Shown here: positions 60 through 39,021 of the stretch, piece after piece
How positions within the stretch are numbered: the first letter of the stretch is position 1
Layout: the number at the start of each line of letters is the position of its first letter
Origin: a candidate division LCP-89 bacterium B3_LCP
Lineage (GTDB): Bacteria; Electryoneota; B3-LCP
Assembly: GCA_005223185.1 (NCBI GenBank)
Contig: NJBN01000001.1
Span: 310,001 to 374,000, forward strand
DNA: 64,000 bases
Direction of reading: 5' to 3'
Position numbers and translations under genes: made by a program
The notes under the pieces: generated by a model
Told to the model about the DNA's origin: nothing
The model's database searches: none
Seen by the model: only the letters and a program-made list of their open reading frames with translations

Positions 60-87
60 AAGCCGGATCTTAAGTCCGGCTTTTTTT
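60..87. terminator. Bidirectional intrinsic terminator
   Basis: An 8-bp perfect stem (AAGCCGGA at 60-67, TCCGGCTT at 75-82) with a 7-nt loop is followed by seven T on the plus strand and by four T on the minus strand. It sits directly after the stop codon of the minus-strand glycosyltransferase gene. It probably also ends a plus-strand gene lying left of the window. Confidence 0.85.
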
Positions 88-2017
88 AGTCGAGCTGTCT
101 TAACAGGTCTATGGCTGGTTTATAATCAGGGTATAAAAGAAGGGTTTTCTCAAGTTGTTCTTTCGTTTCGTCTAAGTATCCTAATTTCCCCAGAGCTAAG
201 GCGAAGTTGTAGTGATATAGAGCCTGGTAAGGGTCCAGTTCGCAGGCAGCGTTGAAGTGGGCTGCGGCTCTCTCCGTTTCACCTGCTTGGGCTCCTTGCA
301 GTCCGATTCTAAAATAGCATTGAGCTAAGTTGATTACCGCGTCAGTGTAGTCGGGTTTCAATTCGAGAGCACGTTCGTAATGAATTTTCGCTTCGCCCCA
401 CTTATTCCGATCAGAGAGGATTGCGCCGATGTTGTTGTGGGTTCTTGCATCTAATGGGTTGATTTCCAGCTCTTTCCTGTACAGGCTGTCGGCTTCTTCA
501 AGATCACCCATCCTGTAGGCGATAACCCCTAAATTGAGGTGAACCTGCCAATAGGTTGAGTCAGCGTTGAGTGCAGAATGGTATGATTTCCGGGCTTTAT
601 CCAAATTGCCCTTTTCCAGGTGAGCGTTCCCCAAACTGAAATAAGAATGTGCGGAGTTCTCTCTTTCGATGCCTGCAAAGTTTGAGTTCACCAACAGGAA
701 AGCCAGTATCAAGGCGATCAACGTTTTTCCCTTTTGCGCGCTCCAGAAAGTAGGTTTCGCCTGGAAAAGGAAGGCAACTACTATCGCACTGAATATGAGC
801 AGAAAAGGTATCATGGGGAGGCGAAAGCGTGCGGTTACAAAGAACGCTATAACGCTCAAGCCGTAAACGGGCAGGATCGCCAAAAACCACCCCGGCAATA
901 TTTTCTGGCGCCAGGTTATAATCCATCCAACCAGTCCCAACGGACCTATCACCCAGAACCCCAACATCCTCAATAGCGGCATGATCGGGGTTTCACCTTT
1001 AAAGAAATAGAGATCCCGGTTGTTGCTTACCTCCAGTCCATTCCCGAACGCGTACACCTTTTTAGCCATTAATTTCATCCAGGAAACGGGATTATCCCGT
1101 ATGAATTCCAGCCCTTTCTTATAATAAAAACTGCTCACTTCTGAGGGCTTCAGAATGCGACCTTCCGTTTCGTAGGCTAATCTCGAAGTCGCGGGTACAT
1201 CCCAGTTTGATCCCAAACCGGGGAAACTGGAATGCAGACCGTCAGCTTCAACGTTATTACCAATATAAAAGTTGATTCCTCCCTGGTAGGCAACTGGAAC
1301 AAAGTCACCGCCCTTTTGGACATTGTGCCAGGTTACCGGGATAATGGGAGTTAGACAGCCAACTATCAATATTAGAGAGCGCAACGCTCTTTTTTGCCAC
1401 CTAAAATATATGCGTGTGAAAAATATGCCATCAAGCATAAATATCGGCAGGAGAATCAGGGCACTGGGTCTGGTGATTGCAGCCAGACCCAAAATCAAGC
1501 CCGGGAAAAATGACCACCAAGAATTCATACTTCTTCTGGATAAAGCGTAAGTTAAACAAGCTGATAAAAACAGAAGCAGAAAGAGAGTTTCGACCAATAG
1601 TTCCCCGTCAAAATAGATAAGCAGGCCGTAGGCCGCAACGCCTAAACTGGACAAAACACAAATAGTTCTACTAAGCTTAAGCGACCGCGCCAGTATGTAG
1701 GTTATAACGGCGGTTCCGGTGCCCACGAATATTTGCACTATTCTGGCTGTTAGGTAACTACCTTCGCTGAAGTAGTAAACCAGAGCCAGAAAATAAGGAT
1801 AAAGGGGTGCGCGAAAGAATACTCCCTCATGTCCAATTCCCTGGCGGATGATTTCCCGAGCCCAGGCATCGTGGTATTCCGCATCGATTATGGGCGCATC
1901 GAAGAAGACTGTACTTTTTAGCTGGAGGATATATACCATTCGCAGCAAGAAGGCGATACCGGTAATTATGGTAATGTCTATCCAGATTGGTTTCTTGTCT
2001 GATTGAGAATTGGGCAT
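86..2017 (-). CDS. GT39-like membrane glycosyltransferase fused to TPR repeats
   Basis: Predicted integral-membrane glycosyltransferase of the GT-C fold (dolichyl-phosphate-mannose mannosyltransferase-like, PMT_2), which would move a sugar from a polyprenyl-phosphate carrier to an acceptor on the outer face of the inner membrane. The N-terminal helix is followed by an acidic first loop (DAEYHDAW, near residue 47) and the FFRAPLYPYF segment typical of this family, then about ten hydrophobic helices to roughly residue 430. From about residue 455 to the end there are four to five TPR units (for example DARTHNNIGAIL, ALELKPDY), a fusion common in environmental FCB and Myxococcota proteins. The ATG at 2017 is preferred over the adjacent TTG at 2020 because AGGTTGA lies just upstream. 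It begins 3 nt after the stop of the metalloenzyme gene, so the two are probably co-transcribed. The acceptor is unknown. Confidence 0.8.
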   Translation of the reverse strand: MPNSQSDKKPIWIDITIITGIAFLLRMVYILQLKSTVFFDAPIIDAEYHDAWAREIIRQGIGHEGVFFRAPLYPYFLALVYYFSEGSYLTARIVQIFVGTGTAVITYILARSLKLSRTICVLSSLGVAAYGLLIYFDGELLVETLFLLLFLSACLTYALSRRSMNSWWSFFPGLILGLAAITRPSALILLPIFMLDGIFFTRIYFRWQKRALRSLILIVGCLTPIIPVTWHNVQKGGDFVPVAYQGGINFYIGNNVEADGLHSSFPGLGSNWDVPATSRLAYETEGRILKPSEVSSFYYKKGLEFIRDNPVSWMKLMAKKVYAFGNGLEVSNNRDLYFFKGETPIMPLLRMLGFWVIGPLGLVGWIITWRQKILPGWFLAILPVYGLSVIAFFVTARFRLPMIPFLLIFSAIVVAFLFQAKPTFWSAQKGKTLIALILAFLLVNSNFAGIERENSAHSYFSLGNAHLEKGNLDKARKSYHSALNADSTYWQVHLNLGVIAYRMGDLEEADSLYRKELEINPLDARTHNNIGAILSDRNKWGEAKIHYERALELKPDYTDAVINLAQCYFRIGLQGAQAGETERAAAHFNAACELDPYQALYHYNFALALGKLGYLDETKEQLEKTLLLYPDYKPAIDLLRQLD

Positions 2018-2020
2018 CAA

Positions 2021-2932
2021 TCAACCTATTAATATTTTCTTTATCAACGGGATTACATCGGTTATGCGTTCCGGTTGGTTCTCATCAATGATTTCGGAAT
2101 CGAAATTCCAGATGAAGGGAACCGAATTGCGGGTGTGCGTTTTTACACTTGAATCTTCGATATTTCCGTGATCTGAAGTGATTATTATCTTGATACCCTC
2201 CTCGTTTGCAAGCGTCAATGTTGAATGAATGAAATCGCTAAGTTGCCTAATTAGGGATAGAATAGCAGATTTATCACCCTTATGTCCCAGGATGTCGGTC
2301 ATAAAATGCTCGTAAAGAGTGAAATGTTCCTTTTTTGCTATTCCAACAAGAATATCCGCGGCTTCTTGTGCTGAAAGAATTGGTATATCTCCCCATTTAT
2401 CACCTAAGCTTCGGTTGGTAAAATCATGGTAAAGAGCTTCTCTTTTCTCGATCTGTTCTACGGATCGGAATGGCTGTCCGGAGGCTTTAAAAGCATGGCT
2501 GGTTACGGACAGTCTGCTGAATGGAGTTATGTCTTCCGGGTGGCGGTAGGCATTGGCGAAAGTGGCATTATAACCGTTTCTGGTCAGGTGCACGAAGATA
2601 CTCTCATTTTTGAGTAATTCAATCAACTTACGGCTGGGAAAGCCCTGAAGATGTTTACCTACAAGTTTCGGTGCATTGATCCCGGTCAGCAGCGCTGTCT
2701 GTCCAGTGGCGCTCTGGGGTAAGCCTTCTACCCCCAGACAGGCGTCGATGGGGATGTTTGACAAACCGTTGAAGTCAGGTTTGTGGTTTTTGGCAGGCCA
2801 GATATCAGGATGGTGAAGCAGAGGATTAAGCCGGGGATCATCTTCGCCTATTCCTAATCCATCTATAAAAATCAACAGTATTTTGCGGGAAGCTTTCAGC
2901 ATATTTAATCTGTGTAAATAGTGTGATTTCAT
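2021..2932 (-). CDS. Alkaline-phosphatase-superfamily metalloenzyme
   Basis: Member of the metalloenzyme superfamily (Pfam Metalloenzyme; phosphoglycerate mutase iPGM / phosphopentomutase / alkaline phosphatase fold). Visible motifs: IDGLGIG near the N terminus (first metal Asp), SATGQTALLTG (nucleophile Ser/Thr loop), HFMTDILGHKG (His/Asp metal ligands), TSDHGNIED (Asp-His ligands) and THTRNSVPF (final His). At about 300 residues it is shorter than cofactor-independent phosphoglycerate mutase (about 510) because the cap domain is reduced, so the substrate cannot be named. Such short homologues are usually annotated as 'metalloenzyme domain protein' or 'peptidase'. Neither Met1 nor Met11 (2902) has a clear ribosome-binding site. 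It is upstream of, and almost abuts, the GT39/TPR gene. Confidence 0.75.
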   Translation of the reverse strand: MKSHYLHRLNMLKASRKILLIFIDGLGIGEDDPRLNPLLHHPDIWPAKNHKPDFNGLSNIPIDACLGVEGLPQSATGQTALLTGINAPKLVGKHLQGFPSRKLIELLKNESIFVHLTRNGYNATFANAYRHPEDITPFSRLSVTSHAFKASGQPFRSVEQIEKREALYHDFTNRSLGDKWGDIPILSAQEAADILVGIAKKEHFTLYEHFMTDILGHKGDKSAILSLIRQLSDFIHSTLTLANEEGIKIIITSDHGNIEDSSVKTHTRNSVPFIWNFDSEIIDENQPERITDVIPLIKKILIG

Positions 2933-3118: not shown

Positions 3119-4246
3119 GTGATTAATTTGATAGAAACACTGCAGATTATAAGCCTGTCGGTTACTTTGATATTCATGCTATTTCTCTGGCTGGGACTTC
3201 GTAGAGAGAGAATCATATCGTCAAGCTGGCGTCCTACAGTTACTGTATTGGTGGCTGCGCGAAATGAAGAGAGGGATCTTCCCGGTTGTTTGGAAAGTCT
3301 AAATAAGCAGGATTACCCGAAAGATTTATGCGAGTTCATCATTATCGATGATGGATCGACGGACGCGACGGGCGAAATAGCTAAGGAATGGTCTGATAAG
3401 GATGCACGGTTCAGAGTGATTCGGCTTGAAGATGAACAGTCCAGATCGTTAGGTCCCAAGAAGAGAGCGCTTACTAAAGGCTTCGATGCGAGTTCCGGGG
3501 ATGTTATTATCTGCACCGATGCCGATAGTCATTTCGGTCTGGGGTGGTTATCGGGAATGATCGCCTGTTTCGATGAAAAAACCACTGCTGTTTGTGGTAT
3601 GGTTAAGTTCGATCCATCCCGCAGTTTCTGGGGGAAATTGGCTGCTTTTGAAGGCTTGGTTGACAGCATATTGAATGCAGCAGTTATCGGCATCGGAGGC
3701 GCTCTGAGCTGTTTCGGAGCAAATTTCGCTTACAGGCGGAAGGTATTTAATGATGCGGGCGGATTTGACGTTGGGTCCGGTTCGCTTTCAGGTGATGACG
3801 ATCTGCTCCTGCAGAGGATGCGTTCATCAGGAGGGAAGATTCGTTTCTGTGCCAATTCGCAATCAGTGGTAATGACTCAAAGTCCCCAGGATAGAAGATC
3901 ATATTGGAACCGCAAGCGGAGGCATCTATCTGCAGGGAAAAGATACGCATTTCACTGGATAATGCTGGCACTGGTGGTTTTCATAGCCTGTCTTACCACG
4001 GATTTACTGGCAGTTTTATGGTTTGCTGATTATCACTCGAATCTAAATTTTGCATATATGTGGGGGTTTTTCAGTCTTGCACTGTTCATCATATTTATAA
4101 GAGGAAAGATGATAATGCTGCAGGAAGGTTACTGGATCTGGTCCTTGACAATATCTTTAGTCTTCCCTCTTTACTTTGTCGTTATTCAGCCACTTACCTT
4201 GCTTCCCGCACCATCATGGAAAGGGCGTTCATCTAAGCATGAATGA
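3119..4246 (+). CDS. GT2 family membrane glycosyltransferase (cluster gene 1)
   Basis: Inverting family-2 glycosyltransferase that takes a nucleotide-activated sugar in the cytoplasm. The order is one N-terminal membrane helix (residues 5-25), a GT-A domain with the nucleotide loop IDDGSTDATGE, a DxD-type motif CTDADSH (about residue 134), the acidic GDDDLLLQRM motif (about 224), then three C-terminal helices (about 280-365). The usual QxxRW motif is degenerate here (NRKRRHLSAG), unlike in its two paralogues downstream. The start is GTG with no obvious Shine-Dalgarno. It opens a plus-strand cluster: its last codons overlap the ATG of the next gene by 8 nt. Acceptor unknown; a lipid or polyprenyl carrier is the usual acceptor for GT2 enzymes with such membrane tails. 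Confidence 0.82.
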   Translation: MINLIETLQIISLSVTLIFMLFLWLGLRRERIISSSWRPTVTVLVAARNEERDLPGCLESLNKQDYPKDLCEFIIIDDGSTDATGEIAKEWSDKDARFRVIRLEDEQSRSLGPKKRALTKGFDASSGDVIICTDADSHFGLGWLSGMIACFDEKTTAVCGMVKFDPSRSFWGKLAAFEGLVDSILNAAVIGIGGALSCFGANFAYRRKVFNDAGGFDVGSGSLSGDDDLLLQRMRSSGGKIRFCANSQSVVMTQSPQDRRSYWNRKRRHLSAGKRYAFHWIMLALVVFIACLTTDLLAVLWFADYHSNLNFAYMWGFFSLALFIIFIRGKMIMLQEGYWIWSLTISLVFPLYFVVIQPLTLLPAPSWKGRSSKHE

Positions 4247-5288
4247 TAATACGGTTACACAGGAGCGAGCGACTGATTTTTCACCAGCATTAACGCGAAT
4301 TGGTGAAAAAAAAGGTAGATCAAAAGCAGTCCGCAAGCGGATAATCTTCTGGACGAAACTGCTCTTGACGCTTTCAGTGCTAATCCTTTTGATAATAACC
4401 ATCAAGCCGCGTGAGATAACCAGCGCCTTCGAAGGGAGCCGCTTTCCTCTGCTGTTAATAAGTTTAGGGCTGGTTATTCCCAATATAGGTCTGCGAGCTA
4501 TACAGTGGGGTTATCTTTTGAGGATGGTGAAACCGGAGGTGAAAGTCAGGGAGATACTTAATTCATTATTGGTAGGATCTACCTTTGCGGTCGTCACACC
4601 GGGACAATTAGGGGAATTCGGTCGAGCTTTCTTCATTTCCGGTCGCCCGCGCCTGGAATTGATCGGCATTTCCTTCATCGATAAGATGTACAGTCTGCTG
4701 CCTATTATTTTAAGCGGAAGTTTGGGGTTGCTATTTATGCCGGGGCTGGTTTTTGGCAGTAATTCATATATCTTCATCTCATCGGCGGTTCTTGTGGCGA
4801 TACTGTGGTTGATACTTATCTCCATACTGCTGTCGCCGCGCTGGATTCGCGATCTTCTTTATGCGGTAAATGTCATGCTACCCTATCGCGACAAAGTGAA
4901 AGTGCTGCTGAGTGGTCTGGATCCCATCAAAATCAAGCAATCACTCGTTCTGACCGGATTGAGCAGCACTCATTACCTGCTCTATATTTTTCAGTTTTAC
5001 CTGCTCATAATATCCTTTCAACATGTGGGATTATTGGACATGTATCGCGCGGTTTCAGCGATTATCTTTGTCAAGGCTGCGCTGCCAATTTCCATAGGAG
5101 GGTTGGGAGTAGGAGAGACGGCATCAGTAGGTTTTTTGAGGGTTTTCGACGTTCAATTTGCTGCCGCTTTCAATAGTTCCGTTATTCTATTTACCATCAA
5201 TATCTTATTTCCTGCTCTAGTGGGAGTTATAATTCTCCTGAAGCTGCGCTTATCTCCAGAGAACGGAAATGGTAAACCAGATGCTTGA
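4239..5288 (+). CDS. LPG-synthase-TM family (flippase-like) membrane protein
   Basis: Polytopic protein of the lysylphosphatidylglycerol_synthase_TM / UPF0104 family (PF03706), related to the membrane half of MprF, to HpnL and to archaeal AglD tails; members are thought to translocate lipids or lipid-linked intermediates. Family signatures seen are VVTPGQLGEFGRAFF in the first half and ISIGGLGVGETASVG near the C terminus, with about eight hydrophobic helices between. It has no aminoacyltransferase domain. The start is set at 4239, where the ATG overlaps the previous stop; the in-frame ATG at 4176 would need a 70-nt overlap. Its place between two GT2 genes suggests it moves their lipid-linked product across the inner membrane (inference). 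Confidence 0.82.
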   Translation: MNDNTVTQERATDFSPALTRIGEKKGRSKAVRKRIIFWTKLLLTLSVLILLIITIKPREITSAFEGSRFPLLLISLGLVIPNIGLRAIQWGYLLRMVKPEVKVREILNSLLVGSTFAVVTPGQLGEFGRAFFISGRPRLELIGISFIDKMYSLLPIILSGSLGLLFMPGLVFGSNSYIFISSAVLVAILWLILISILLSPRWIRDLLYAVNVMLPYRDKVKVLLSGLDPIKIKQSLVLTGLSSTHYLLYIFQFYLLIISFQHVGLLDMYRAVSAIIFVKAALPISIGGLGVGETASVGFLRVFDVQFAAAFNSSVILFTINILFPALVGVIILLKLRLSPENGNGKPDA

Positions 5289-6468
5289 ACCGTTATGGAC
5301 AGTATTGTTAGCTGCTACAGGTCTGATTTACTTTGCCTTTCTGGAAGTGGTCAGAAGGGGATTGGGAAAACTCCGTGATGCTGAAGCTTATCGGGATAAA
5401 GCGGATGAGTATTTAGACGTCAGCGTTATAATTCCCTGCCGAAATGAAGCTGAACACATCGGTCATGCTTTAAATGACCTGATCGAACAAAATTATCCTG
5501 CTGATAAAATGCAGATAATCGTGGTGAATGATCGTTCTACCGACGACACCGGAAAAGAAGTCAGTGATTATCTGTCCAGGATGCCACAACTTGAATTAGT
5601 AGAAATCAACTTGTGTCCGGATGGAATCTCCCCTAAGCAGAACGCCCTTGTTGCGGGAATGCAAAAAGCAACCGGTGACATTATAATCACCACTGATGGC
5701 GACTGCCGTTTTCAAAAGGGCTGGGTGAGTGCCTTAGTGAACCAATTTAAAGGTGAAACCGGCGTGGTAACCGGATTAACTGTTTTCGACCGTGGACGTT
5801 CTGAACCTTTCTGGCAGAGGATGCAGCAACTTGATTATCTCTCTCATTCATTTTTCGCTGCCGGCGCCATCGGCGCGGGAATGGCGTTCAACTGTAATGG
5901 CAGCAACTTAGCGCTGCGACGTGAAGTATTCGATGAAGTGGGTGGCTACGGTGATCTTAAAGATGTGTCTGTAAGTGATGATACCGCTTTACTGCAGAGG
6001 ATCAAACGGGATACAAAATGGGACATAGCTTTCAGCACGGATCCACAAAACAGAGTACATTCCTGGCCAGAAGAGACGCCTGCTGAAGTATTTAATCAAC
6101 GGTTGCGCTGGGCTGCTGGAGGGGTGTCAAGCAATCCCAGAGTGCTGATGTTTGAACTGATTACTTTCATCTTTTTCATGGCGCTGTTCCTGTCTCCCTG
6201 GTTATGGCTGGGAGGGTTGATTTCGGGAAGCTGGGTGGTTTTATTCATTCTGAAGCTATTGCAGGAGTTGCGCGTTATGAGGTTGGGATGGAATATATTC
6301 AAAATAAAACCGGATATGATATCCTTTTTGGCGATGGAATTGGTTCACATTCCGGCGATCTTGCTATTCAGTATCCTGGGAAATCTGTGGGGCTTCCGGT
6401 GGAAAGGACAACACTACAAAGGGATTGGAAAAAAGGAAGACGCTCCATCGATGGTATCTGAACGATGA
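5269..6468 (+). CDS. GT2 family membrane glycosyltransferase (cluster gene 3)
   Basis: Second GT2 enzyme of the cluster, with the complete motif set of processive-type GT-A enzymes: NDRSTDDTG loop, TTDGDC (DxD, about residue 142), SDDTALLQ (acidic motif, about 240) and NQRLRWAAGG (QxxRW, about 276). A hydrophobic N-terminal helix and two to three C-terminal helices anchor it. It is a diverged paralogue of the GT2 genes at 3119 and 7460 (same layout, different motif spelling), which suggests different donor or acceptor specificity rather than recent duplication. It overlaps the flippase-like gene by 20 nt and the downstream radical SAM gene by 4 nt (ATGA), a strong operon sign. A slightly later ATG at 5281 is also possible. 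Confidence 0.85.
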   Translation: MVNQMLEPLWTVLLAATGLIYFAFLEVVRRGLGKLRDAEAYRDKADEYLDVSVIIPCRNEAEHIGHALNDLIEQNYPADKMQIIVVNDRSTDDTGKEVSDYLSRMPQLELVEINLCPDGISPKQNALVAGMQKATGDIIITTDGDCRFQKGWVSALVNQFKGETGVVTGLTVFDRGRSEPFWQRMQQLDYLSHSFFAAGAIGAGMAFNCNGSNLALRREVFDEVGGYGDLKDVSVSDDTALLQRIKRDTKWDIAFSTDPQNRVHSWPEETPAEVFNQRLRWAAGGVSSNPRVLMFELITFIFFMALFLSPWLWLGGLISGSWVVLFILKLLQELRVMRLGWNIFKIKPDMISFLAMELVHIPAILLFSILGNLWGFRWKGQHYKGIGKKEDAPSMVSER

Positions 6469-7454
6469 TAAGACTCCTGCCCACAGCAAAGATGCTGCAG
6501 GTTGCCCGCTGTCTGTATAAGAACCGGAAGAACGGTGCAGGGATCTATCCTTTTTACGCTTCTCTGAAGGTGACCGATCTGTGCGGCTTTCGATGTTCCT
6601 TTTGCAATGTCTGGCGCAATCCCGCGCCGGACCTGGATACTGAAGGAATTATTAAGGTGCTGCGCAATTTGGGGGATTCTTCCATCGTGTTAACGTCTAT
6701 AGAAGGCGGCGAACCACTTCTTCGTAAGGATATCGAAATCATCTTAAAAGAAGCATCACAGCAGCCCTATTACCTTCTATTCACCACCAGCGTCAGGAAC
6801 TTGCTCGATTATCCCTTAGAGACGTACAGTAAATGGATCGATCTATTTCACGTATCAATCGATGAGGGACACGAAAACTTAGAACTGTTCGACATCTTGC
6901 CAGAGATTGTGGATCTACCCTGGATCGTCTGCGTTCAGACTGTCGTGCGGGATTGTGATATGGGATCGATGGCTGAAAAGGTAAAAACCTGTGCTGACAA
7001 TGGCGCCAAGATACTAATCATGCCAGCGGTAGAATTGGACGATGCCAAACACAGCTTTCCCGACCCTGCCCGGTTCAGCCGTGAAGTCGCAGATTTGAAG
7101 AAACGGTTTCCCCGTACCGTACTCACGCCACGGCGTTACCTGGATGCAATAAATGGTGAATCGCATTGTTCTGCTGCGTCGATTATAATAGACAGCGATG
7201 GAGGTCTGTTTTATCCCTGTAGAACATTAAATGAGAAGCCGGTCAACCTGACCCAAACCGATCTGATGGGTTATCTGGAATCGCAAGATGCATCAGAGCG
7301 CCGTTCCGTGATGAAAACCTGCGACCGACTCTGCGGCTGGTATCAGTATTTTGCCATAGATTTCTTCACTCAGCCGGGGGAGGTTCTGGAATCGCTGGGA
7401 CCGTATTGGGGAGATCTGATCGGTTGGCGTTCAAAGAAAGCGTCTCACGTCTGA
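6465..7454 (+). CDS. Radical SAM protein with C-terminal cysteine cluster (cluster gene 4)
   Basis: Radical S-adenosylmethionine enzyme. The [4Fe-4S]-AdoMet motif CGFRCSFC gives Cys40, Cys44 and Cys47 (Cx3Cx2C), and the GGEP motif (IEGGEPLLR) binds the AdoMet amino group. The C-terminal third has further cysteines (GESHCSAAS, FYPCRTLN, KTCDRLCGWYQ) spaced like a SPASM/twitch auxiliary cluster, as in peptide- or sugar-modifying radical SAM enzymes and HpnH-like proteins. Length 329 residues is normal for this group. The chemistry is unknown; its position between GT2 genes, with a 4-nt overlap upstream, argues for modification of a sugar or lipid intermediate. The C terminus overlaps nothing; the next ATG is 5 nt downstream. 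Confidence 0.83.
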   Translation: MIRLLPTAKMLQVARCLYKNRKNGAGIYPFYASLKVTDLCGFRCSFCNVWRNPAPDLDTEGIIKVLRNLGDSSIVLTSIEGGEPLLRKDIEIILKEASQQPYYLLFTTSVRNLLDYPLETYSKWIDLFHVSIDEGHENLELFDILPEIVDLPWIVCVQTVVRDCDMGSMAEKVKTCADNGAKILIMPAVELDDAKHSFPDPARFSREVADLKKRFPRTVLTPRRYLDAINGESHCSAASIIIDSDGGLFYPCRTLNEKPVNLTQTDLMGYLESQDASERRSVMKTCDRLCGWYQYFAIDFFTQPGEVLESLGPYWGDLIGWRSKKASHV

Positions 7455-7459
7455 AAATT

Positions 7460-8557
7460 ATGGATAGCTTAGTAGTAGTTATTGGTATTATTTATATTTT
7501 CATAGGACTGATTATATGGAAGGGTTTGGCAATCAGTCCCAAGAAAAGGGGAAAAGAAACGGTAGATTTCGCTTCTTTGATATTATGCGCCAGAAATGAA
7601 GAGAAGTGTTTAGAAGCCTGTCTCGAATCGGTTGAAAAGCTGGATGCTGATCCGGACTGCTTTGAGGTAATTTTAGTGAATGATGCATCTGATGACGCAA
7701 CCGGCTCAATAATGGATCAGTTTGCAGCCAGGTGTGATTACAAAGTGGAGGTAATACATCTTTCACCATTGCGAAGGGATGAACCAGGTGGTAAATGGCG
7801 CCCTTTAAAAGAGGGAGTAAAAGCTGCTTCGGGTGAAGTTATACTCATCACGGATGCCGATGCGATACTTCCGGTGAAATGGGTAGAAGAACACTTGACT
7901 ATTCTGCACGGAAGCGATATTTCAGCAGGTTATGCAATCAACCTCTATGGGAATGTATTTAACCGGATTTTGGGGTTGGATTGGCTGTTCATTCAAAGCG
8001 CTGGCGGATCGCTGTCCAACTGGGGACGACCTCAATCGGTATTGGGGAAGAATCTGGGGTTTCGCCGTAATGCTTACGAAGATGTTGGTGGTTTGGAGGG
8101 GATCGGTTTCTCCTTGACTGAAGATCAGAGTTTGATGAGAACAGTAGTTGACAACGGCGGTAAAGTACAGTTCTCATCATCCCCTGATATGGCTGTCAGC
8201 GTTTGTAGTACGCTGGGGGTTGGTGATTATTTAGAAAAGAAGCAACGCTGGGCAACAGGATTTTCTCTTTTAAGAAAGGAAGGAAAAGCCACGGTTTTAG
8301 CCGCGCAATTACGAAATATTGCCATAATTATAGGTTTATTTACGTGTTTGCCAATTGCTCTATCCATCTGGATTATTACTTCTTTCGTAAACTACCTGGT
8401 ATTGCGCAGGATTTTGACAAAATTGGGTGACATGATAGACATAAAGTTATTTATGCTGTGGGAAATTTTCAATACTCTGACGTCTCCTTTGCAGATAGCT
8501 CTTCACTTTGCCAGTCCTAAAGTCGAATGGAAAAAACGGCGACTGTCAAATCGCTGA
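7460..8557 (+). CDS. GT2 family membrane glycosyltransferase (cluster gene 5)
   Basis: Third GT2 enzyme of the cluster. N-terminal helix, then NDASDDATG, ITDADAIL (DxD, about residue 131), TEDQSLMRT (acidic motif) and LEKKQRWATG (K/QxxRW, about 258), then two C-terminal hydrophobic stretches (about 285-345). The ATG at 7460, 5 nt after the preceding stop, is chosen; an in-frame ATG at 7406 would overlap the radical SAM gene by about 50 nt and add a non-hydrophobic leader. Cytoplasmic active site, membrane-bound; acceptor unknown. The three GT2 enzymes share the same topology, so the product may carry up to three sugars. Confidence 0.83.
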   Translation: MDSLVVVIGIIYIFIGLIIWKGLAISPKKRGKETVDFASLILCARNEEKCLEACLESVEKLDADPDCFEVILVNDASDDATGSIMDQFAARCDYKVEVIHLSPLRRDEPGGKWRPLKEGVKAASGEVILITDADAILPVKWVEEHLTILHGSDISAGYAINLYGNVFNRILGLDWLFIQSAGGSLSNWGRPQSVLGKNLGFRRNAYEDVGGLEGIGFSLTEDQSLMRTVVDNGGKVQFSSSPDMAVSVCSTLGVGDYLEKKQRWATGFSLLRKEGKATVLAAQLRNIAIIIGLFTCLPIALSIWIITSFVNYLVLRRILTKLGDMIDIKLFMLWEIFNTLTSPLQIALHFASPKVEWKKRRLSNR

Positions 8558-8588
8558 CTTAATACGCAATAAATGAATCTGAATATAT

Positions 8589-9557
8589 ATGCCCCTGGTC
8601 TGTAATTATTATTTGACCTATCGCTGCAATGCTCGCTGCACATTCTGCGATTTATGGCAGCACGAAAACAGGGATTTGGCTGATGCTTCTGATGTACTGG
8701 ATAATCTAAAAACACTTCGGGCAGCAGGTGTGCGCATCGTAGATTTCACCGGTGGAGAGCCCTTGATGCATCCAGAACTGCCCATGTTTTTACGAGTCGC
8801 CCGAAAACATGGACTGATGACGACAGTTACCACCAACGGAATCCTCTACCCCAAGTTGGCTGCAGAACTGCACGGTCTCATAAGCATTCTTCATATTTCC
8901 ATTGACAGCATGGATCCCATCGTACACGATAAGCTACGTGGGATTTCCTGTTATGATTTGGCAATCAAATCGGTGGAGACAGCGCTGTCCTCAGGTGAAA
9001 AACCCGATTTGCTCTTCACCGCAGGCAGGGATAACTATAAGGATGTAGTACCACTATCCGGGTACGCCCGCAGTAAAAATTTAGTGCTGATAGTCAATCC
9101 CATGTTTGAGGTAAATGGTGGTGAAGGGGCTTTAGGGCACGATGAGTTAGTGGAGTTAGAGAGACTTTGCCGCAAACCCAATGTGTATTTAAACGGCGGC
9201 GTTATAAGGATCATGTTGGAAGGTGGCAACAACACGTTGAAACCGCGCTGCCGAGCCGTCTCATCGAGTATAGTGATATCGCCGGATAACGAGTTACTCC
9301 TGCCCTGTTTTCACCGGGCACAGGGTGCAGTATCGATAAATGGAAGTTTGAATCGTGCTCTGGCGAGTGCAGAGCGAATGAAATGGTTGCATCTGCAGGG
9401 GCGGGAAGATATATGCCGCAATTGTACCATTAACTGTTACTTAGCACCTTCCCTTCCGTACCGCCTGGACCGGTACTTCGCTTCCTTCATCCCCTGGGGG
9501 GTTAAATATCTATATTACCGTAACTTCCGCCTGAAACCAGCCGAAAGCAACGCATGA
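8589..9557 (+). CDS. Radical SAM/SPASM-like protein (cluster gene 6)
   Basis: Second radical SAM enzyme of the cluster, clearly not a close copy of the first. The Cx3Cx2C motif is YRCNARCTFC (Cys13, Cys17, Cys20), very near the N terminus as in MoaA/HpnH-type proteins, followed by DFTGGEPLMHP. The C-terminal region carries KPRCRAVSS, LLPCFHRA and DICRNCTINCYL, a cysteine pattern fitting an auxiliary [4Fe-4S] cluster (SPASM/twitch). The ATG at 8589 is the only plausible start, since an earlier ATG at 8573 is out of frame. It overlaps the PHP gene by 4 nt (ATGA). Substrate unknown; candidates are lipid, sugar or peptide. Confidence 0.82.
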   Translation: MPLVCNYYLTYRCNARCTFCDLWQHENRDLADASDVLDNLKTLRAAGVRIVDFTGGEPLMHPELPMFLRVARKHGLMTTVTTNGILYPKLAAELHGLISILHISIDSMDPIVHDKLRGISCYDLAIKSVETALSSGEKPDLLFTAGRDNYKDVVPLSGYARSKNLVLIVNPMFEVNGGEGALGHDELVELERLCRKPNVYLNGGVIRIMLEGGNNTLKPRCRAVSSSIVISPDNELLLPCFHRAQGAVSINGSLNRALASAERMKWLHLQGREDICRNCTINCYLAPSLPYRLDRYFASFIPWGVKYLYYRNFRLKPAESNA

Positions 9558-11134
9558 CACCGGTTGATCTTCCTCCTGAAATTTTACCCTTAGTGGTGAT
9601 GTATCCTGAAGTACATTATCGCTTTCGCGCTCTTCCCATCAGTAGGTATTTTATCAGGCAGCCTGAAATCATCGCTGATGCTCCCCACAGAATAGAACCA
9701 GGTCAGCCCCTGCCGGTACTGTTAGTGATAAAAGATGCTGATAGATTCCCGGTCCTCCTGCAAGGAGTCAATCTGGATATTCAGGGGAAGGATACCTACT
9801 ACACTCACCATGTGAATTTCGGTCAGGAAATGGTTTCCACGCACTGGTGGCATCACATAGAATGGGTTGATCTTCCCGACGAAGCGCCCTGCGAATGGAC
9901 AATCACCCCGACCTGGCGTATTCAGCTTCGGGGTAAATATCGTGCGGTAGGAACGGATAACTTAGCAGGTCTATCGCATAAGCCGCTGCAGGTTTTTCAG
10001 GCAAGCGATCCGTTGCCTCGCAAAGAAGGCTGGGTTTTCGGGGATTTTCATGTTCATACTGCCTATACTGAAGATCAGATAGAGTTCGGAGCGCCGCTTC
10101 CGGCATACCCGGCTTTGGGAAAAGCCATGGGGTTATCCTTCGTATTCGCGTCAGATCATTCTTACGATTTAGATGACGTGCCGGGTTCTTTCACCGAAGC
10201 TGATCCCAATCTGATCAGGTTTAAACAGATGCAGAGAGAAATCGTACAACTGAATGCTGAGAAGAGCGGAGAATTTGTATTCATCCCCGGTTACGAACTG
10301 AGCGCGGCTAATTCAAGGGGCAAGAACGTTCATCTTTTGTTAGTTAATCAGAAGGATTTTCTGCCGGGTTCTGGAGATTCGGCAGAACGCTGGCTGCACA
10401 GGAAGGCAGAATTAACCATTTCCGAAGCGCTGGCGCAGATGAAGAAGGAAACTCTGGCTGTGGCTGCTCATCCAAAAATGAAAGCGCCATTATTGGAGAG
10501 GCTGCTATTAGGCAGGGGTCATTGGGGGAAGTCTGATTTGGAACATGAATCACTGTTCGGATTGCAAGTCTGGAACGGCGGCAGCGGTAAGGATTTTCAG
10601 AGAGGACTGAAGATCTGGACAAAAGGACTACTGGAAGGTAAGCGATGGAAACTGTTAGCAGGAAGTGACGCGCACGGAAATTTCAACCGGTATAGACAGG
10701 TCGGTATCCCCATGCTCTACCTGACTGAATCCGATCGACAGTTGTTCGGAAAAGTCCGCACCGGAATACGAATCAGGGAAAGGTTAGATTTAGCCGGAAT
10801 CATGTCCGCTCTACGGGAAGACCTAAGTTTAGTAACGGATGGCCCTTTCGCTGAGTTATCCCTTAAGAGAATAAATAACAACTCAATTAGCGTCAATATT
10901 GCCGCATCGAGCAGCTCAGAATTCGGGGAACTGGAAGTGGTTAAACTGTTTTGGGGAGCTGAAGGAGAACCGCAGGAGCGGATTCACCTTTGTCATGAAG
11001 ATGTAGGTGGATATGATTTTAGTATAGAAACGGAGATTCCCAAACCGAAGGGCTACGTACGTATAGAGGTACAAACCAACAAAGGATGCCTCTGTTTAAC
11101 CAACCCGGAGTTTATCGAGGTTCAGTCACAGTAA
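9554..11134 (+). CDS. PHP-domain metallohydrolase, CehA/McbA-like (cluster gene 7)
   Basis: Contains a PHP (polymerase and histidinol phosphatase) catalytic domain of the CehA/McbA type, which cleaves phosphoester or ester bonds with two to three metal ions. Motifs: GDFHVHTAYTED (HxH, about residue 163), FASDHSYDL, PGYELSA, VAAHPKMK and AGSDAHGN (DAH, about 372). Residues 1-155 form a beta-rich N-terminal region (HHVNFGQEM, EWTITPTWR) with no signal peptide, and the last 70 residues form another beta domain. It is the last gene of the cluster, translationally coupled to the radical SAM gene, and its 3' end overlaps the convergent SPOR-lipoprotein gene by 23 nt. It may trim or recycle an intermediate of the pathway (inference). 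Confidence 0.8.
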   Translation: MTPVDLPPEILPLVVMYPEVHYRFRALPISRYFIRQPEIIADAPHRIEPGQPLPVLLVIKDADRFPVLLQGVNLDIQGKDTYYTHHVNFGQEMVSTHWWHHIEWVDLPDEAPCEWTITPTWRIQLRGKYRAVGTDNLAGLSHKPLQVFQASDPLPRKEGWVFGDFHVHTAYTEDQIEFGAPLPAYPALGKAMGLSFVFASDHSYDLDDVPGSFTEADPNLIRFKQMQREIVQLNAEKSGEFVFIPGYELSAANSRGKNVHLLLVNQKDFLPGSGDSAERWLHRKAELTISEALAQMKKETLAVAAHPKMKAPLLERLLLGRGHWGKSDLEHESLFGLQVWNGGSGKDFQRGLKIWTKGLLEGKRWKLLAGSDAHGNFNRYRQVGIPMLYLTESDRQLFGKVRTGIRIRERLDLAGIMSALREDLSLVTDGPFAELSLKRINNNSISVNIAASSSSEFGELEVVKLFWGAEGEPQERIHLCHEDVGGYDFSIETEIPKPKGYVRIEVQTNKGCLCLTNPEFIEVQSQ

Positions 11135-11630
11135 CTTTACTCTGCACCACCCATGCACCCCGGTAACCTCGTTTGACCGCCACCTGACGCAGCTTGTTCG
11201 CTTCGGTGCGCGTTAAGCAATCGCCAATACGGATCTTATAAATTGGTGAATCGAATATCAAGTAAACATTTTGGTCGAATTCGATTAAAGCTTTCTCTTC
11301 CACCGAACGTGCTTCGAATTCAACGTTTGTAGTGAAGAGTTGCACGCGGTATCCCGAAACTTCTACGGTTTCAAATGATACAGCAGTATCCCTCTCGCTT
11401 TCATTTATAGAGGCAGACGTCGAAGGTTTTGACTGGAGTTCCGATGGTGGCAGTGTGATGGTTTCATCATCTGGAAACTCAAGCGGATCGAAGCTCTCAT
11501 CCTGAGGGACGCGATTTATATCCTGTGGTGGAGATTCTTCCAATGTGGGTGGTGGAGTTGGTGCGCATCCGGCTTGCAGTAAGATTACTGCTAAGATGAG
11601 GAGGAGAGATATTGAGTTTATTGCTTTCAT
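11112..11630 (-). CDS. SPOR-domain lipoprotein
   Basis: Lipoprotein with a signal peptide ending in the lipobox LLQAGC (Cys22), a Pro/Glu-rich linker (about 23-95) and a C-terminal SPOR domain (about 97-172: SGYRVQLFTT... GYRGAWVVQ). SPOR domains bind denuded glycan strands of septal peptidoglycan, so it probably acts at the division site or the outer membrane-wall interface. It lies 29 nt downstream of batE on the same strand and may be the last gene of the bat operon or have its own role. Its 3' end overlaps the convergent PHP gene by 23 nt. Confidence 0.8.
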   Translation of the reverse strand: MKAINSISLLLILAVILLQAGCAPTPPPTLEESPPQDINRVPQDESFDPLEFPDDETITLPPSELQSKPSTSASINESERDTAVSFETVEVSGYRVQLFTTNVEFEARSVEEKALIEFDQNVYLIFDSPIYKIRIGDCLTRTEANKLRQVAVKRGYRGAWVVQSKVTVTEPR

Positions 11631-11659
11631 TTCAACTCTGGAATTTCTTTAAACCTTAT

Positions 11660-12442
11660 CTATATAACTTCATAAGCTTCTTTTAGTATCCATCCTCGCT
11701 TGCCGTCAGCCAGCCTGATCTCAGACCATTGGGCAACTTCCCTGAGAATTTCCATCTTTACACCTTCATGCAGGGCGAACAGCTTGGTAGCCTCAGCTTC
11801 TGGTGCGCTGCGGATTTCAACGTCCTTTATCATCACAATTGCTTCGGTGAGATTGTCCTGGTAGATTTTCTGTTGAACGAAGAAGGCCCCTGAAAGGACG
11901 AACACGGCGCCGAAAAATAGGAATCCTGTCAGCAATATTTTTCGCCAGCGAATTCTACGCACAGAATGTAATGCGATGAGACATACAGCTACCAGCCATT
12001 CAGTTAATATGAACAATATTGACCATTCCTTCACCGATAACATAGAAGCAGCTTTGTTGAATAGAGTAATTAAGAAGAAGCGCGGCATCGGCTCAATGCG
12101 GTCGAAAATGCGCATGTTGGCTAATTTCAGGTTAACGTTCAAGTCCGGATCGTTTCCTAAGTAGCGGCGAGCTCTTTCATAGTTCAAGATGGTATGCCCG
12201 TATTCTCCCTGCTTGTAATAACAGTTACCTAAGTTATAGAGGATTTCACCGTTGATGAATCCTCCAGCGATGATATCCTCATAAACAGTAGCGGCGGTAT
12301 TGTAGTCATTTTCACGATAGCTCTCTTCAGCTTCCGCATAGGCTATGTCCAAGCCGTGGGTTTGCGCTTTCAGGCTGAGAATGAAGATACACAAAAAGAA
12401 AAACAGGGATAGAATGACGGCTAATCCTCTTCGCACAATCAC
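11660..12442 (-). CDS. batE: BatE: TPR protein with SH3 domain
   Basis: Membrane protein of the Bacteroides-aerotolerance (Bat) set. It has an N-terminal signal or anchor (residues 5-26), two TPR-like units (about 30-110: AATVYEDIIAGG, NGEILYNLGNCYYKQGEY), two membrane helices (about 135-190) and a C-terminal bacterial SH3 domain (about 200-260: IRSAPEAEATKLFALHEGVKMEIL, with RGWILKEAYEVI at the end). The start is GTG, sharing GTGA with the batD stop (4-nt overlap). The Bat proteins are thought to form a periplasm-facing complex driven by MoxR and linked to stress or aerotolerance; the molecular function is not settled. Confidence 0.8.
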   Translation of the reverse strand: MIVRRGLAVILSLFFFLCIFILSLKAQTHGLDIAYAEAEESYRENDYNTAATVYEDIIAGGFINGEILYNLGNCYYKQGEYGHTILNYERARRYLGNDPDLNVNLKLANMRIFDRIEPMPRFFLITLFNKAASMLSVKEWSILFILTEWLVAVCLIALHSVRRIRWRKILLTGFLFFGAVFVLSGAFFVQQKIYQDNLTEAIVMIKDVEIRSAPEAEATKLFALHEGVKMEILREVAQWSEIRLADGKRGWILKEAYEVI

Positions 12443-14325
12443 AGTTTGTTCCCCCAGGTTTTTTCAATGCGATCCAAAACTATGTCAACCCGTTTCAATA
12501 ATCTTCTTAGAACATCTTGATCTGTAACTTCCATAGCGAAACGCGCTGCATTGCATTCGTTGAAAATATCGTTTAGTGTCGTCATGATATCTTCCGGGAC
12601 GTCGCGCTTTTTCAATTCTTTTAGCACATCATCTTCCATCAGCCCCGAAGCAGGAATAGCGAGTTTAGTGCTGAGGAAGTTCAGCAAAGTGTTGTGGATA
12701 GCTCCATAGGTTGCAGAGGCATTTGTGTCAGACGTTCTCTTCACCAGGGATTTTAACTTATCTTTCGATTTATGATAAATCCTGTGCTGTTGGCGCCGAA
12801 CCTGAAGTGTGGGAGCGCCCAGCAAGCGTGCAGCCCACCATAAAATAACAATAATAAGCGGTGGAAGGGCAACGCCAACCCAATAAGCAAACGGCAGGTT
12901 TTGAGCAGACCCGACCGCATACAAACGACCCGGAGTTTTCAGGTAACGTACATCCTTTGCCAGGAGTTTCACTTCTTCGCGGGATATTCCTGAAGGAGAG
13001 CCGTAATCACCATCACCTGAACGCGTAACGGAGATTTCAAAGCCTCTTTCTTTTATAGTCTGGTAAGTTCCAGAGGACGGATTGAAGTAAGCAAAATTAA
13101 TGGAGGGGATAGCGCTTTTCCCCGGAATACGCGGTATAAGGACGTATTCGAAAGTCTTGGATCCGAAGATTTTGGCGCCAGATTTATTTATCTTAATAGA
13201 TTCCTTCGGTTCGTATGCTTCGAAATCTGGTGGTACTGAAAAATCGGGCTGCGGTAAAAGCTTGATGTTTCCGGTGCCATTGAAGCGAACTGACATGGTG
13301 ATCGCTTCATTGGTGCTGACCTCGTCTCGGTCAATTTTGACTTCCATACTAAAATTACCGACGGCTCCCGAAAAATTACGGGGTTTACCCTCATCCGGTA
13401 GAGGTAGAACAGTCAGTTTCAAGGGGTCGGTTTGGATGAAACGCTCTTCGGTTCTGTAACGGCTGAAAGGGCTGTCGAACATCATATCGAAGGGATCCTG
13501 GCGCCTTCTTGATTGCCGCTGCACCTGTACCTGGCAGGTGACTTCTAATGGATCGATGATCATTTCGCCCGGATGCGTGGAAAAGAGCGCTACTCGTCTG
13601 ATTACTGCTTTTTTATAGTGTCTCCCCCCGATAACTTCGTCCTGAACAGCGGGTTGTTTAGACGAATCAAACTCTTCAGTCCAGAAACCCGGTGTAGCGG
13701 GGAGATGGCTGATTTCGTAAGCATTTACCGAGACACGTGTGTAAATAATATATGTCAGGATTACCTGTTCATTCTGGAAGATACGGTTCTTATCGGCTGT
13801 AACTCTGACGAACAGTTCCGATGATTCCTTATCTGTGGTTTGGGGTAGAGGAGTGGTTCTTTTCGCGCTTCCTGGTGTTGTGGTTACAGTTCGACTTCCT
13901 ACCTGTAGGAAAATCGGTTCTGTACTATAGATCTTCCCTTTATGAGTCAACCGTACGCTTTCGATTGTCAGCGTACCAGTACGCTTTGGTTTAAGGACGT
14001 ATGACCAGGACTTGATCAGAGAATAGTTGGTGTTGATAATCTGAAAGGTACTCGATTCGTTAGGACCGGAGATTATGCGGAAATCAGACAGTTCCGGCAG
14101 TTTGGGGTCGGATACCCTGGATACTGAGCCTTCCACCTGAAGCGTGAGTGTGAAGGTATCGGTGACGTCCAGCGCAGTACGATCGACAACAGCGGTAAAG
14201 GTAATGTCCGCGGCACAAGTTATACCTACCAGCAGAGATAGAAGGACAGCGACGGAGATGAATATCATCAGACGTTTATCAACTGTCCGATATGAAACAG
14301 ATCTGCTATTAATTGATTCTATCAT
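12439..14325 (-). CDS. batD: BatD oxygen-tolerance family protein
   Basis: BatD family (PF13584) protein with an N-terminal signal sequence (hydrophobic run about residues 21-37, ending LVGITCAADITF), several beta-sandwich repeats in the periplasm (for example FTLTLQVEG, ILTYIIYTRV, ITMSVRFNGTG), one membrane helix (about 485-508: AYWVGVALPPLIIVILWW) and a cytoplasmic helical tail. The start is placed at the ATG at 14325. A TTG at 14349 overlapping the batC stop is the alternative and would add eight residues. Probable periplasmic scaffold of the BatA/BatB complex, in the middle of the operon with 4-nt couplings to its neighbours. Confidence 0.82.
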   Translation of the reverse strand: MIESINSRSVSYRTVDKRLMIFISVAVLLSLLVGITCAADITFTAVVDRTALDVTDTFTLTLQVEGSVSRVSDPKLPELSDFRIISGPNESSTFQIINTNYSLIKSWSYVLKPKRTGTLTIESVRLTHKGKIYSTEPIFLQVGSRTVTTTPGSAKRTTPLPQTTDKESSELFVRVTADKNRIFQNEQVILTYIIYTRVSVNAYEISHLPATPGFWTEEFDSSKQPAVQDEVIGGRHYKKAVIRRVALFSTHPGEMIIDPLEVTCQVQVQRQSRRRQDPFDMMFDSPFSRYRTEERFIQTDPLKLTVLPLPDEGKPRNFSGAVGNFSMEVKIDRDEVSTNEAITMSVRFNGTGNIKLLPQPDFSVPPDFEAYEPKESIKINKSGAKIFGSKTFEYVLIPRIPGKSAIPSINFAYFNPSSGTYQTIKERGFEISVTRSGDGDYGSPSGISREEVKLLAKDVRYLKTPGRLYAVGSAQNLPFAYWVGVALPPLIIVILWWAARLLGAPTLQVRRQQHRIYHKSKDKLKSLVKRTSDTNASATYGAIHNTLLNFLSTKLAIPASGLMEDDVLKELKKRDVPEDIMTTLNDIFNECNAARFAMEVTDQDVLRRLLKRVDIVLDRIEKTWGNKL

Positions 14326-14342
14326 TAACTCTGTTGTTTTAC

Positions 14343-15083
14343 TTACCAATCCTTGCCCTTACCTGAAGCAGCTGCCGGTTGTCGATGCAGATTTTCCTGC
14401 ACCTCTTTTTCATCGGACTGCAGTGCGTTGAGCAAACGTTCAGCATCTTCTTTACTCATGGTTTCAGGCTGTGGCTGTTCTTGCTGTTGTGTGTCCTGTT
14501 GTTCTTCCGGGGTCTGTTCCTGTTGTGACTGTTGATCCTGTTGTTGTTCTTGCTGGTCTTGTTGCTGTTGATCCTGCTGATCTTGTTGCTGTTGTTCGTT
14601 CTGATCCTGATTTTGTTGATCGTTCTGATCCTGTTGCTGTTGTTGCTGGGGAGGTGGATTTTCCAGCATGTGTAAAGCTAATTCCAGGTTGTGCAGGTAA
14701 TCCCGCTGTCCGGAATTTAGCTTTAGAGCGGATTTATAGGCTTCCACAGCTTCCTGAATTTGCTGTGACCCGATTAAGGCATTACCTAAATTGTAAAGTG
14801 CGTCCGCTCTGACCAGGTTGTCGGAGCTTATCAGCGAATTCTGGAATGCTTGACCGGCTTCCGGGAACTTCTCCTGCGCGTGGAGGATGTTACCCAATCC
14901 GAAACTTATTCTGGTGGTATCACCTTCCTGGCTCAAGGCATCCAGGTACTCCACCAGCGCATCGTTGTACTGCCCCTTTTCGTAAAGCTTATCTCCGGCG
15001 CGTACTTTGGATCGCCAGTTAGCCTGGCATAAAGTGGGCAACAGCAATAGAAGAGCTACAATATTTAAGATTTTTCCGTTCAT
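14343..15083 (-). CDS. batC: BatC: TPR protein with glutamine-rich tail
   Basis: TPR protein of the Bat operon. Signal peptide (1-21), then three TPR units (about 22-130: GDKLYEKGQYNDALVEYLDA, ALYNLGNALIGSQQIQEAVEAYKSAL), then a long low-complexity tract (about 143-205) made almost only of Gln with interspersed Asp, Asn and Glu. The DNA there (14465-14655) is a run of imperfect CTGTTG-like repeats, likely to vary in length between strains. The C terminus EDAERLLNAL resembles other BatC ends. It overlaps batB by 4 nt. The periplasmic TPR may bridge the BatA/BatB VWA domains. Confidence 0.82.
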   Translation of the reverse strand: MNGKILNIVALLLLLPTLCQANWRSKVRAGDKLYEKGQYNDALVEYLDALSQEGDTTRISFGLGNILHAQEKFPEAGQAFQNSLISSDNLVRADALYNLGNALIGSQQIQEAVEAYKSALKLNSGQRDYLHNLELALHMLENPPPQQQQQQDQNDQQNQDQNEQQQQDQQDQQQQDQQEQQQDQQSQQEQTPEEQQDTQQQEQPQPETMSKEDAERLLNALQSDEKEVQENLHRQPAAASGKGKDW

Positions 15084-16120
15084 TTCGATTTGTCAGTTGA
15101 AAGTATGCGTAAAAAGCGCGGCAGACGCACCTTGCGGTCAGAAAGCAGGTGCTCTATTATTATCAACAGGATTGCCAATAAGATTATAGGTTGATAGCGA
15201 TGTTCGTATTGCGTGAATTGTCTTGACCCAAGTTCACCTTTCTCCAGTCCGGATATGGCTCCGATTATGGCATCCCAGGCGTCTTGACCACTGGTGCAGC
15301 GTTGATAGACGCCGCCAGTTTCATCAGCAATTTGTTGCAGCATGTCTTCGCCCAGTCGTGTTACCACGACATTCCCGTCGCGGTCTTTTTGGAATTCGCC
15401 ACTTTTGTCACCCAGAGGAATAGGAACGCCTTGTGGTGAACCTATACCAACGGTATGTATGACGATCCCCAATTCCTTTGCCTTATCCAGCGCCTCAGTT
15501 ACTTTCGATTTGTGATCTTCACCGTCGGTTATCAATACAATCGACTTACCGGCAGGGCTATCTTCCGAAAAAGCCTGCAGGGAGGTGTTAATGGCGGCGG
15601 AGATGGAAGTCCCGGGCATTGAAATTAAGTTCGGCTCCAGGATATCCAGGAAGATTTCCGCGGCGCCGTAATCGAGGGTCAAGGGGCATTCGATGACAGC
15701 CTTACCCGCAAAGGCAACCAGAGCTACCCGGTCGCCTTCAAGCCGGTTCAGGAGACGTCGCATTTCGTGTTTGGCTTTTTCCAATCGCGAAGGCGCGACG
15801 TCCAGTGCCAGCATGGATTTGGATACGTCCACCGCCACTACTATGTCAATTCCTTCTCGCTTGATCTCCTCTATCTTAGTGCCTACCTGCGGATCAGCCA
15901 GAGCGATTACAGCCAGTGTAAAACTCCCCACCAGCAGGGCGTCTTTGACATATTTTCGCCGTATCGATAAGTTGGGTGCGATGACGGATAACAGCGCTGA
16001 AGAAGCAAAACTCTTCCGAAGTTTTTGGCTGATTCTACCTCTGTAGTAGTAGAGAAAGGCTACTAGAAGAGGTATCAACAGCAACAGGTAGAGGGCTTCG
16101 ACGTTTCCCCAGCGGATCAT
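15080..16120 (-). CDS. batB: BatB: membrane von Willebrand factor A protein
   Basis: Aerotolerance protein with an N-terminal membrane segment (about 5-25 and 55-75), a VWA domain with a complete MIDAS (AVDVSKSMLALD giving DxSxS, the Thr loop near SMPGTSISAAI, and LITDGEDHKS), and a C-terminal membrane helix (about 312-330). 346 residues is the expected size. It shares ATGA-type overlaps with batA and batC. VWA/MIDAS domains bind a metal ion and a protein ligand. It is paralogous to BatA, and in Bacteroides the two are membrane partners. Confidence 0.87.
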   Translation of the reverse strand: MIRWGNVEALYLLLLIPLLVAFLYYYRGRISQKLRKSFASSALLSVIAPNLSIRRKYVKDALLVGSFTLAVIALADPQVGTKIEEIKREGIDIVVAVDVSKSMLALDVAPSRLEKAKHEMRRLLNRLEGDRVALVAFAGKAVIECPLTLDYGAAEIFLDILEPNLISMPGTSISAAINTSLQAFSEDSPAGKSIVLITDGEDHKSKVTEALDKAKELGIVIHTVGIGSPQGVPIPLGDKSGEFQKDRDGNVVVTRLGEDMLQQIADETGGVYQRCTSGQDAWDAIIGAISGLEKGELGSRQFTQYEHRYQPIILLAILLIIIEHLLSDRKVRLPRFLRILSTDKSK

Positions 16121-38942: not shown

Positions 38943-39015
38943 GGGGCTGTAGCTCAGCTGGGAGAGCGATACGTTCGCAACGTATAGGTCGGCGGTTCGA
39001 TCCCGCTCAGCTCCA
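38943..39015 (+). tRNA. tRNA-Ala (anticodon CGC)
   Basis: 73-nt cloverleaf. The acceptor stem GGGGCTG (38943-38949) pairs with CAGCTCC (39008-39014) and includes the G3:U70 wobble pair that marks alanine tRNAs. The D-arm is GCTC...GAGC, the anticodon stem ATACG/CGTAT with loop TTCGCAA gives anticodon CGC (38976-38978, reads GCG), and the T-arm contains GGTTCGATCCC. Discriminator base A; the CCA end is not encoded. An alanine codon family using CGC in addition to the usual UGC/GGC tRNAs is moderately rare. Confidence 0.95.
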
Positions 39016-39021
39016 CATTTT

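Follow-up and report, generated by a model that had tools for sequence, protein, structure and literature searches.

A gene cluster of membrane glycosyltransferases, radical SAM enzymes and a PHP hydrolase found in several bacterial phyla: a putative pathway for a modified cell-envelope glycan or glycolipid

Among the known systems closest to the locus studied here is the hopanoid cluster hpnI-hpnK-hpnJ (with hpnH and hpnL), for which the published order is HpnI (GT2), HpnK (deacetylase) and HpnJ (radical SAM) (PMC12583986). Both systems combine a GT2 glycosyltransferase and a radical SAM enzyme with an LPG_TM-type protein nearby and an N-deacetylase, the latter present only in relatives of the organism studied here. 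They differ in that a PHP hydrolase is added in our locus and in that the deacetylase of the relatives is CE4/NodB-like, whereas HpnK is YdjC-like. In lipochitooligosaccharide synthesis, too, a cytosolic CE4 deacetylase (NodB) follows a membrane GT2 (NodC), as is seen in the relatives. However, their deacetylase scores under the cut-off, the radical SAM, PHP and LPG_TM proteins are without counterpart in the Nod system, and the genome of our window lacks this deacetylase. One of the two radical SAM enzymes (rSAM2) has a radical SAM core and a fold similar to those of BlsE, the sugar-acting cytosylglucuronate decarboxylase of the blasticidin S pathway, but the match is restricted to the core and lies far under the cut-off. 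The PHP protein has the intact metal-ligand pattern of the CehA/McbA-type metallohydrolases; it differs from them in a score just under the cut-off and in a conserved N-terminal beta region. Capsule-type loci share Wzi and DUF3108 genes with the cluster as it occurs in other phyla, but both genes are absent from the operon in our window, and the usual Wza, Wzc, Wzx and Wzy genes are missing.

The window, i.e., the whole stretch of 64,000 nucleotides that was analysed, belongs to contig 7 in the 3.8 Mb assembly of a candidate division LCP-89 bacterium, a division that falls within the FCB group. The ORF check confirmed seven co-directional genes on the + strand between positions 3119 and 11134, encoding the three GT2 proteins, the LPG_TM protein, the two radical SAM enzymes and the PHP hydrolase named in the original prediction. 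Pfam assigned PF00535 to three of the ORFs, PF03706 to one and PF04055 to two; the PHP protein gave no match in the Pfam scan and was placed by its score against an NCBIfam model and by its metal ligands. The genes had been described as joined by overlaps of 4 to 20 nt, which holds for four of the six junctions (8, 20 and 4 nt at the first three and 4 nt at the last), but the fourth and fifth are gaps of 5 and 31 nt. None of the seven genes encodes a sugar-nucleotide enzyme, Wzx or Wzy. Upstream of the operon lies a divergent gene pair on the - strand, namely an alkaline-phosphatase/iPGM-superfamily protein (2021..2932, PF01676) and a polytopic membrane protein with TPR repeats and a weak PMT/GT-C match (86..2020). 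Synteny shows both to be kept beside the cluster within family f1, and the membership of the former in the cluster is only putative. The operon and the convergent SPOR-domain gene that follows it overlap slightly. In base composition and in codon GC3 the cluster resembled its flanks, with no sign of a recent import; the recent-transfer reading was dropped because the codon GC3 of the cluster matches that of the flanking genes.

The first gene, GT2a (3119..4246, + strand), encodes a membrane GT2 protein (PF00535, 94 bits) with several predicted transmembrane segments. Its DxD motif is present (DAD134), but the canonical QxxRW is absent and replaced by RKRRH. Orthologues with 51% identity head the cluster on the long contigs L021 and L024. 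The next gene (about 4239..5288, + strand) encodes LPG_TM, a flippase-like polytopic membrane protein without a catalytic domain, matching PF03706 with 85.1 bits (cut-off 33.4) over its whole length (positions 3-302 of 302). LPG_TM adjoins GT2b and shows 61-65% identity in family relatives and 35-40% in other families of the phylum; its profile matched no relative among solved structures. GT2b (5269..6468, + strand, PF00535) is a membrane GT2 protein carrying both DxD and QxxRW (QRLRW277). Comparison of its profile with solved structures yielded an alignment of approximately 300 positions with ceramide glucosyltransferase. This enzyme and cellulose synthase aligned beyond the core, whereas most other solved relatives were matched through the nucleotide-sugar core only. 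The third membrane GT2 protein, GT2c (about 7460..8557, + strand, PF00535), carries a TED motif and is encoded directly before rSAM2.

Both rSAM1 (6465..7454, + strand; PF04055, 39 bits; probably twitch-like) and rSAM2 (8589..9557, + strand; PF04055, 82 bits) belong to the radical SAM superfamily, with the CxxxCxxC motif (at 40/44/47 in rSAM1) and PF04055 scores over the cut-off. The extra cysteines noticed in the original prediction proved to be real: C235, C252, C286 and C290 of rSAM1 and C221, C240, C276, C279 and C283 of rSAM2, all C-terminal, were invariant among all relatives aligned. They correspond to the auxiliary-cluster cysteines of SPASM/twitch proteins, and the Pfam SPASM model matched neither enzyme, which suggests twitch-like rather than full SPASM proteins. 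We infer from the invariant C-terminal cysteines, four in rSAM1 and five in rSAM2, that each enzyme may hold one auxiliary iron-sulphur cluster. The identity of rSAM1 was 71-76% in family f1 and 53% in f7; the named relatives with 71-76% identity include proteins of MAGs that bear the labels candidate division LCP-89, Zixiibacteriota or Calditrichaeota. When the rSAM2 profile was compared with solved structures, the best sequence match was BlsE (4e-22), covering the radical SAM core only. The fold search assigned the rSAM2 model to the MoaA/viperin/SuiB/BlsE type, several families scoring alike; the fold Z for BlsE was 18.6, with viperin, SuiB, PqqE and MoaA equal or better. Identity with BlsE (TIGR04466, 52.4 bits versus a cut-off of 400) and with viperin (NF038283, 68.8 bits versus 180) was rejected.

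The close link to HpnH, HpnI and HpnL that had been proposed was not borne out by these enzymes. The HpnH model scored 30.8 and 39.4 bits with the two radical SAM proteins (cut-off 225), and the HpnI model reached at most 87.8 bits with the GT2 proteins (cut-off 310). The original prediction had noticed no hopene cyclase in the sequence shown, and PF13249 was absent from all 13 genomes searched, including that of the window, and the Bacillus subtilis control was positive. Membership in the hopanoid system was thus rejected, but the analogy may still indicate how the pathway works.

The last gene (9554..11134, + strand) encodes a PHP-type (CehA/McbA-like) cytosolic metallohydrolase. Its score with the CehA/McbA metallohydrolase model NF038032 was 72.4 bits (cut-off 80), and the homologue at L152 exceeded the cut-off with 92.4 bits. 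The ligand pattern of the PHP superfamily (HxH, DH, E, H, DxH) is complete, and residues H166, H168, D201, H202, E248, H306, D372 and H374 were kept in 15 of 15 aligned sequences. The catalytic region is accompanied by two beta-rich regions, a conserved one on the N-terminal side (about 35-160) and another on the C-terminal side. The structure model of this protein was partial and weak (mean pLDDT 57.6, with values below 50 for residues 303-404). The Foldseek search with it matched long and poorly superposed beta-rich proteins, which were set aside. Many genomes carry stand-alone PHP relatives, which were not separated from the clustered proteins in a tree with an unresolved backbone.

Among the outcomes that would have refuted the original prediction was a lack of joint conservation of the genes elsewhere; the search found their order kept across genera and their core across phyla. 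PHP and radical SAM genes were present in five of the six genomes of the window's family, in the same order wherever contigs were whole, and the cluster was absent from the remaining genome. On L021 and L024 the order is GT2a-LPG_TM-GT2b-rSAM1-[deacetylase]-GT2c-rSAM2-PHP, and the genes that border the cluster at either end are also the same. The arrangement is more than chance by the evidence of sequence comparison, as relatives of each protein (40-76% identity) share this order in other genera. The gene between rSAM1 and GT2c in the family relatives encodes a PF01522 deacetylase with NodB as the best curated match (93.6 bits versus a cut-off of 240). It has no predicted signal or transmembrane segment and is therefore probably cytosolic. 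The same search that was positive in four relatives gave no match to this deacetylase in the whole genome of the window, which we read as a loss of the gene in this organism. Neither this loss nor the tight rSAM2-PHP unit described below, which sometimes stands without any glycosyltransferase, was part of the first reading. Elsewhere in the phylum, LPG_TM-GT2b-deacetylase-PHP was found in a second family at all eight loci with enough contig, five of them with a SPASM radical SAM gene upstream; rSAM1 and rSAM2 were not found at these eight loci. Two further families keep GT2c-rSAM2-PHP, and one of them also has rSAM1.

The search was extended to a sample of 386 genomes, mostly across the domain, and detected the long PHP protein in 44 and rSAM2 in 13 of them. 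Within a second phylum (that of genome G357), rSAM2 was present in 30 of 82 genomes. PHP lay directly downstream of rSAM2 in 17 of the 21 loci read, and a GT2 gene directly upstream in 17 of 21, 16 of these GT2 proteins scoring best with the GT2c profile. Further upstream, many of the 21 loci contained LPG_TM, more GT2 genes, Wzi and DUF3108; a gene for a SPASM radical SAM protein or a deacetylase was an occasional addition. DUF3108 proteins have been described as outer-membrane proteins with the YmcC fold (PMC4364669). The second-phylum locus L144 has an enolase-superfamily (MR_MLE) enzyme preceding rSAM2-PHP, and L146 has an ORF of similar size at the same position. All three genomes available from a third phylum carried rSAM2 paired with PHP; in two of them the pair lay beside genes identified, where scanned (L100), as purH, purD and Sua5-type, and no glycosyltransferase was detected near these two pairs. 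It follows from the layouts in the second and third phyla that rSAM2-PHP is the tightest unit and that glycosyltransferase and LPG_TM genes are its commonest partners.

We consider it probable (roughly 0.6) that the operon assembles a glycan or glycolipid of the cell envelope that carries a chemical modification. This reading builds on the observed gene set and order, the conservation in several phyla and the intact active-site motifs; the alignment of GT2b with ceramide glucosyltransferase, the NodB-like deacetylase of the relatives and the sugar-acting BlsE as best sequence match of rSAM2 also favour it. It is weakened by the PHP relatives that stand alone, by the family genome without the cluster and by the lack of a sugar-nucleotide enzyme, Wzx or Wzy in the operon. 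GT2a, GT2b and GT2c would act as membrane glycosyltransferases that glycosylate a lipid or extend a glycan on the cytoplasmic side of the membrane. The cytosolic NodB-like deacetylase of the relatives would strip N-acetyl groups, so at least one of the sugars would be a HexNAc; this step would have been lost in the window's organism. rSAM2 followed by PHP is predicted to carry out a two-step cytosolic modification of a sugar or its precursor, in which a radical rearrangement, oxidation or cleavage would be followed by metal-dependent hydrolysis of the resulting product. rSAM1 may provide a second, lineage-specific radical modification. LPG_TM would translocate the lipid-linked product or assist its transport, and in another phylum Wzi and DUF3108 would handle the product at the outer membrane. 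The sugar-bearing lipid originally predicted agrees with this reading as far as an envelope glycan or glycolipid is concerned, but the product may be something other than a lipid, as Wzi and DUF3108 point equally to a surface polysaccharide.

Two more specific forms of the envelope-glycan reading were weighed, and the confidence placed in them does not exclude it. It is possible, though doubtful, that the operon makes a glycolipid from a non-hopanoid lipid along the lines of the HpnI-HpnK-HpnJ pathway, with GT2b adding GlcNAc, the deacetylase freeing the amine, a radical SAM enzyme rearranging the sugar and LPG_TM flipping the product. Such chemistry would follow the published order of these three enzymes (PMC12583986), and the proximity of GT2b to ceramide glucosyltransferase and HpnI, as well as the cytosolic deacetylase of the relatives, is consistent with it. 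It is opposed by the missing hopene cyclase, the absence of a deacetylase from the window genome, the match of the radical SAM enzymes to HpnH through the core only and the absence of HpnJ among the matches listed for rSAM1. The occurrence of Wzi in other phyla also argues against it and suggests a polysaccharide. A surface polysaccharide locus, in which GT2b and GT2c would be processive synthases, Wzi and DUF3108 would serve export and retention and the radical SAM/PHP pair would modify the monomer, is another possibility that we hold with some doubt. The QxxRW/TED-type GT2 motifs agree with it, as do Wzi and/or DUF3108 within the cluster in other phyla and a Wzi gene located elsewhere in the window's genome, outside the operon. 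However, the operon of the window lacks Wzi, DUF3108 and the deacetylase, Wza, Wzc and Wzx are likewise absent, and LPG_TM is unexpected in synthase-dependent export.

The substrate of rSAM2-PHP may also be a non-glycan, since the third-phylum pairs without glycosyltransferases lie beside purine genes and the pair at L144 lies beside an MR_MLE enzyme; this counts against a glycan role. The same purD/purH, Sua5 and MR_MLE neighbours favour a composite locus, in which rSAM2-PHP would be an independent module for the modification of a small molecule or nucleotide, travelling with glycan genes by chance. We regard this as unlikely, as the GT2 gene directly upstream of rSAM2 in most second-phylum loci reproduces the window's order and would be difficult to account for if the genes did not act in one pathway. 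A mycofactocin-like RiPP pathway, with radical SAM enzymes maturing a small peptide that the GT2 proteins then glycosylate, was suggested by the SPASM/twitch-type radical SAM enzymes and by MftF as the best curated match of GT2a (83 bits versus a cut-off of 280). It was rejected as highly improbable: the gaps within the operon, at most 31 nt long, are too short to hold a precursor gene, the mycofactocin radical SAM model scored 42 bits with rSAM2 (cut-off 265), and LPG_TM and the deacetylase do not fit such a pathway.

The search of the open-access literature found no description of this gene combination; the cluster, conserved across several phyla by sequence comparison, is apparently undescribed, a search of this scope being weak evidence. 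We propose tentatively, and at less than even odds, that the envelope-glycan reading extends to a multi-phylum, previously undescribed glycan or glycolipid, the sugar of which would be remodelled by a dedicated radical SAM and PHP pair through chemistry new to characterised bacterial envelope pathways. To our knowledge, few characterised pathways use a radical SAM enzyme to modify envelope sugars or lipids, HpnJ being one such enzyme, and the substrate of the rSAM2-PHP pair would therefore represent new enzymology. Phyla whose members are mostly uncultured share this gene order, at the core of which lies radical chemistry by two enzymes, and this points to an envelope component that has perhaps gone unseen, its makers being hard to grow. 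The product could serve as a lipid or glycan biomarker of these communities.

Within the cluster, four relatives from the family carry a PF01522 deacetylase gene between rSAM1, the first radical SAM gene, and GT2c, the third membrane glycosyltransferase gene; on the long contig L021 of a family relative, it occupies positions 10995-11650. The gene is cleanly absent from the window at 7454-7460, where the gap between rSAM1 and GT2c is 5 nt, and a search of the rest of the window's genome for the PF01522 deacetylase gene did not find it.

In the second phylum, the glycosyltransferase position directly before the rSAM2-PHP pair (the second radical SAM gene and the metallohydrolase gene) was occupied by an MR_MLE enolase-superfamily protein identified by a Pfam match (locus L144, 7834-9024) or by a similar-sized ORF (locus L146, 10053-11213). 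In the third phylum, sampled by three genomes only, purH, purD and a Sua5-phosphatase fusion gene were found directly upstream of rSAM2-PHP in L100, where genes were scanned, and same-sized ORFs held these places in L119.

Convergent to the cluster lies a Bat-type operon (window 11660-16120) of BatD-, TPR/BatC- and VWA/BatA-like genes, names that were assigned by eye from the sequences; this position is kept within the family. The window's single tRNA gene, tRNA-Ala (anticodon CGC), is located at 38943-39016. A divergent gene pair (window 86-2932) adjoins the cluster, also in the family relatives that were read; one gene encodes a polytopic membrane protein with TPR repeats, the other a member of the alkaline-phosphatase/iPGM superfamily. 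The TPR protein gene, the first of the pair, is present in two copies in L021. The divergent pair is possibly linked to the cluster in function.
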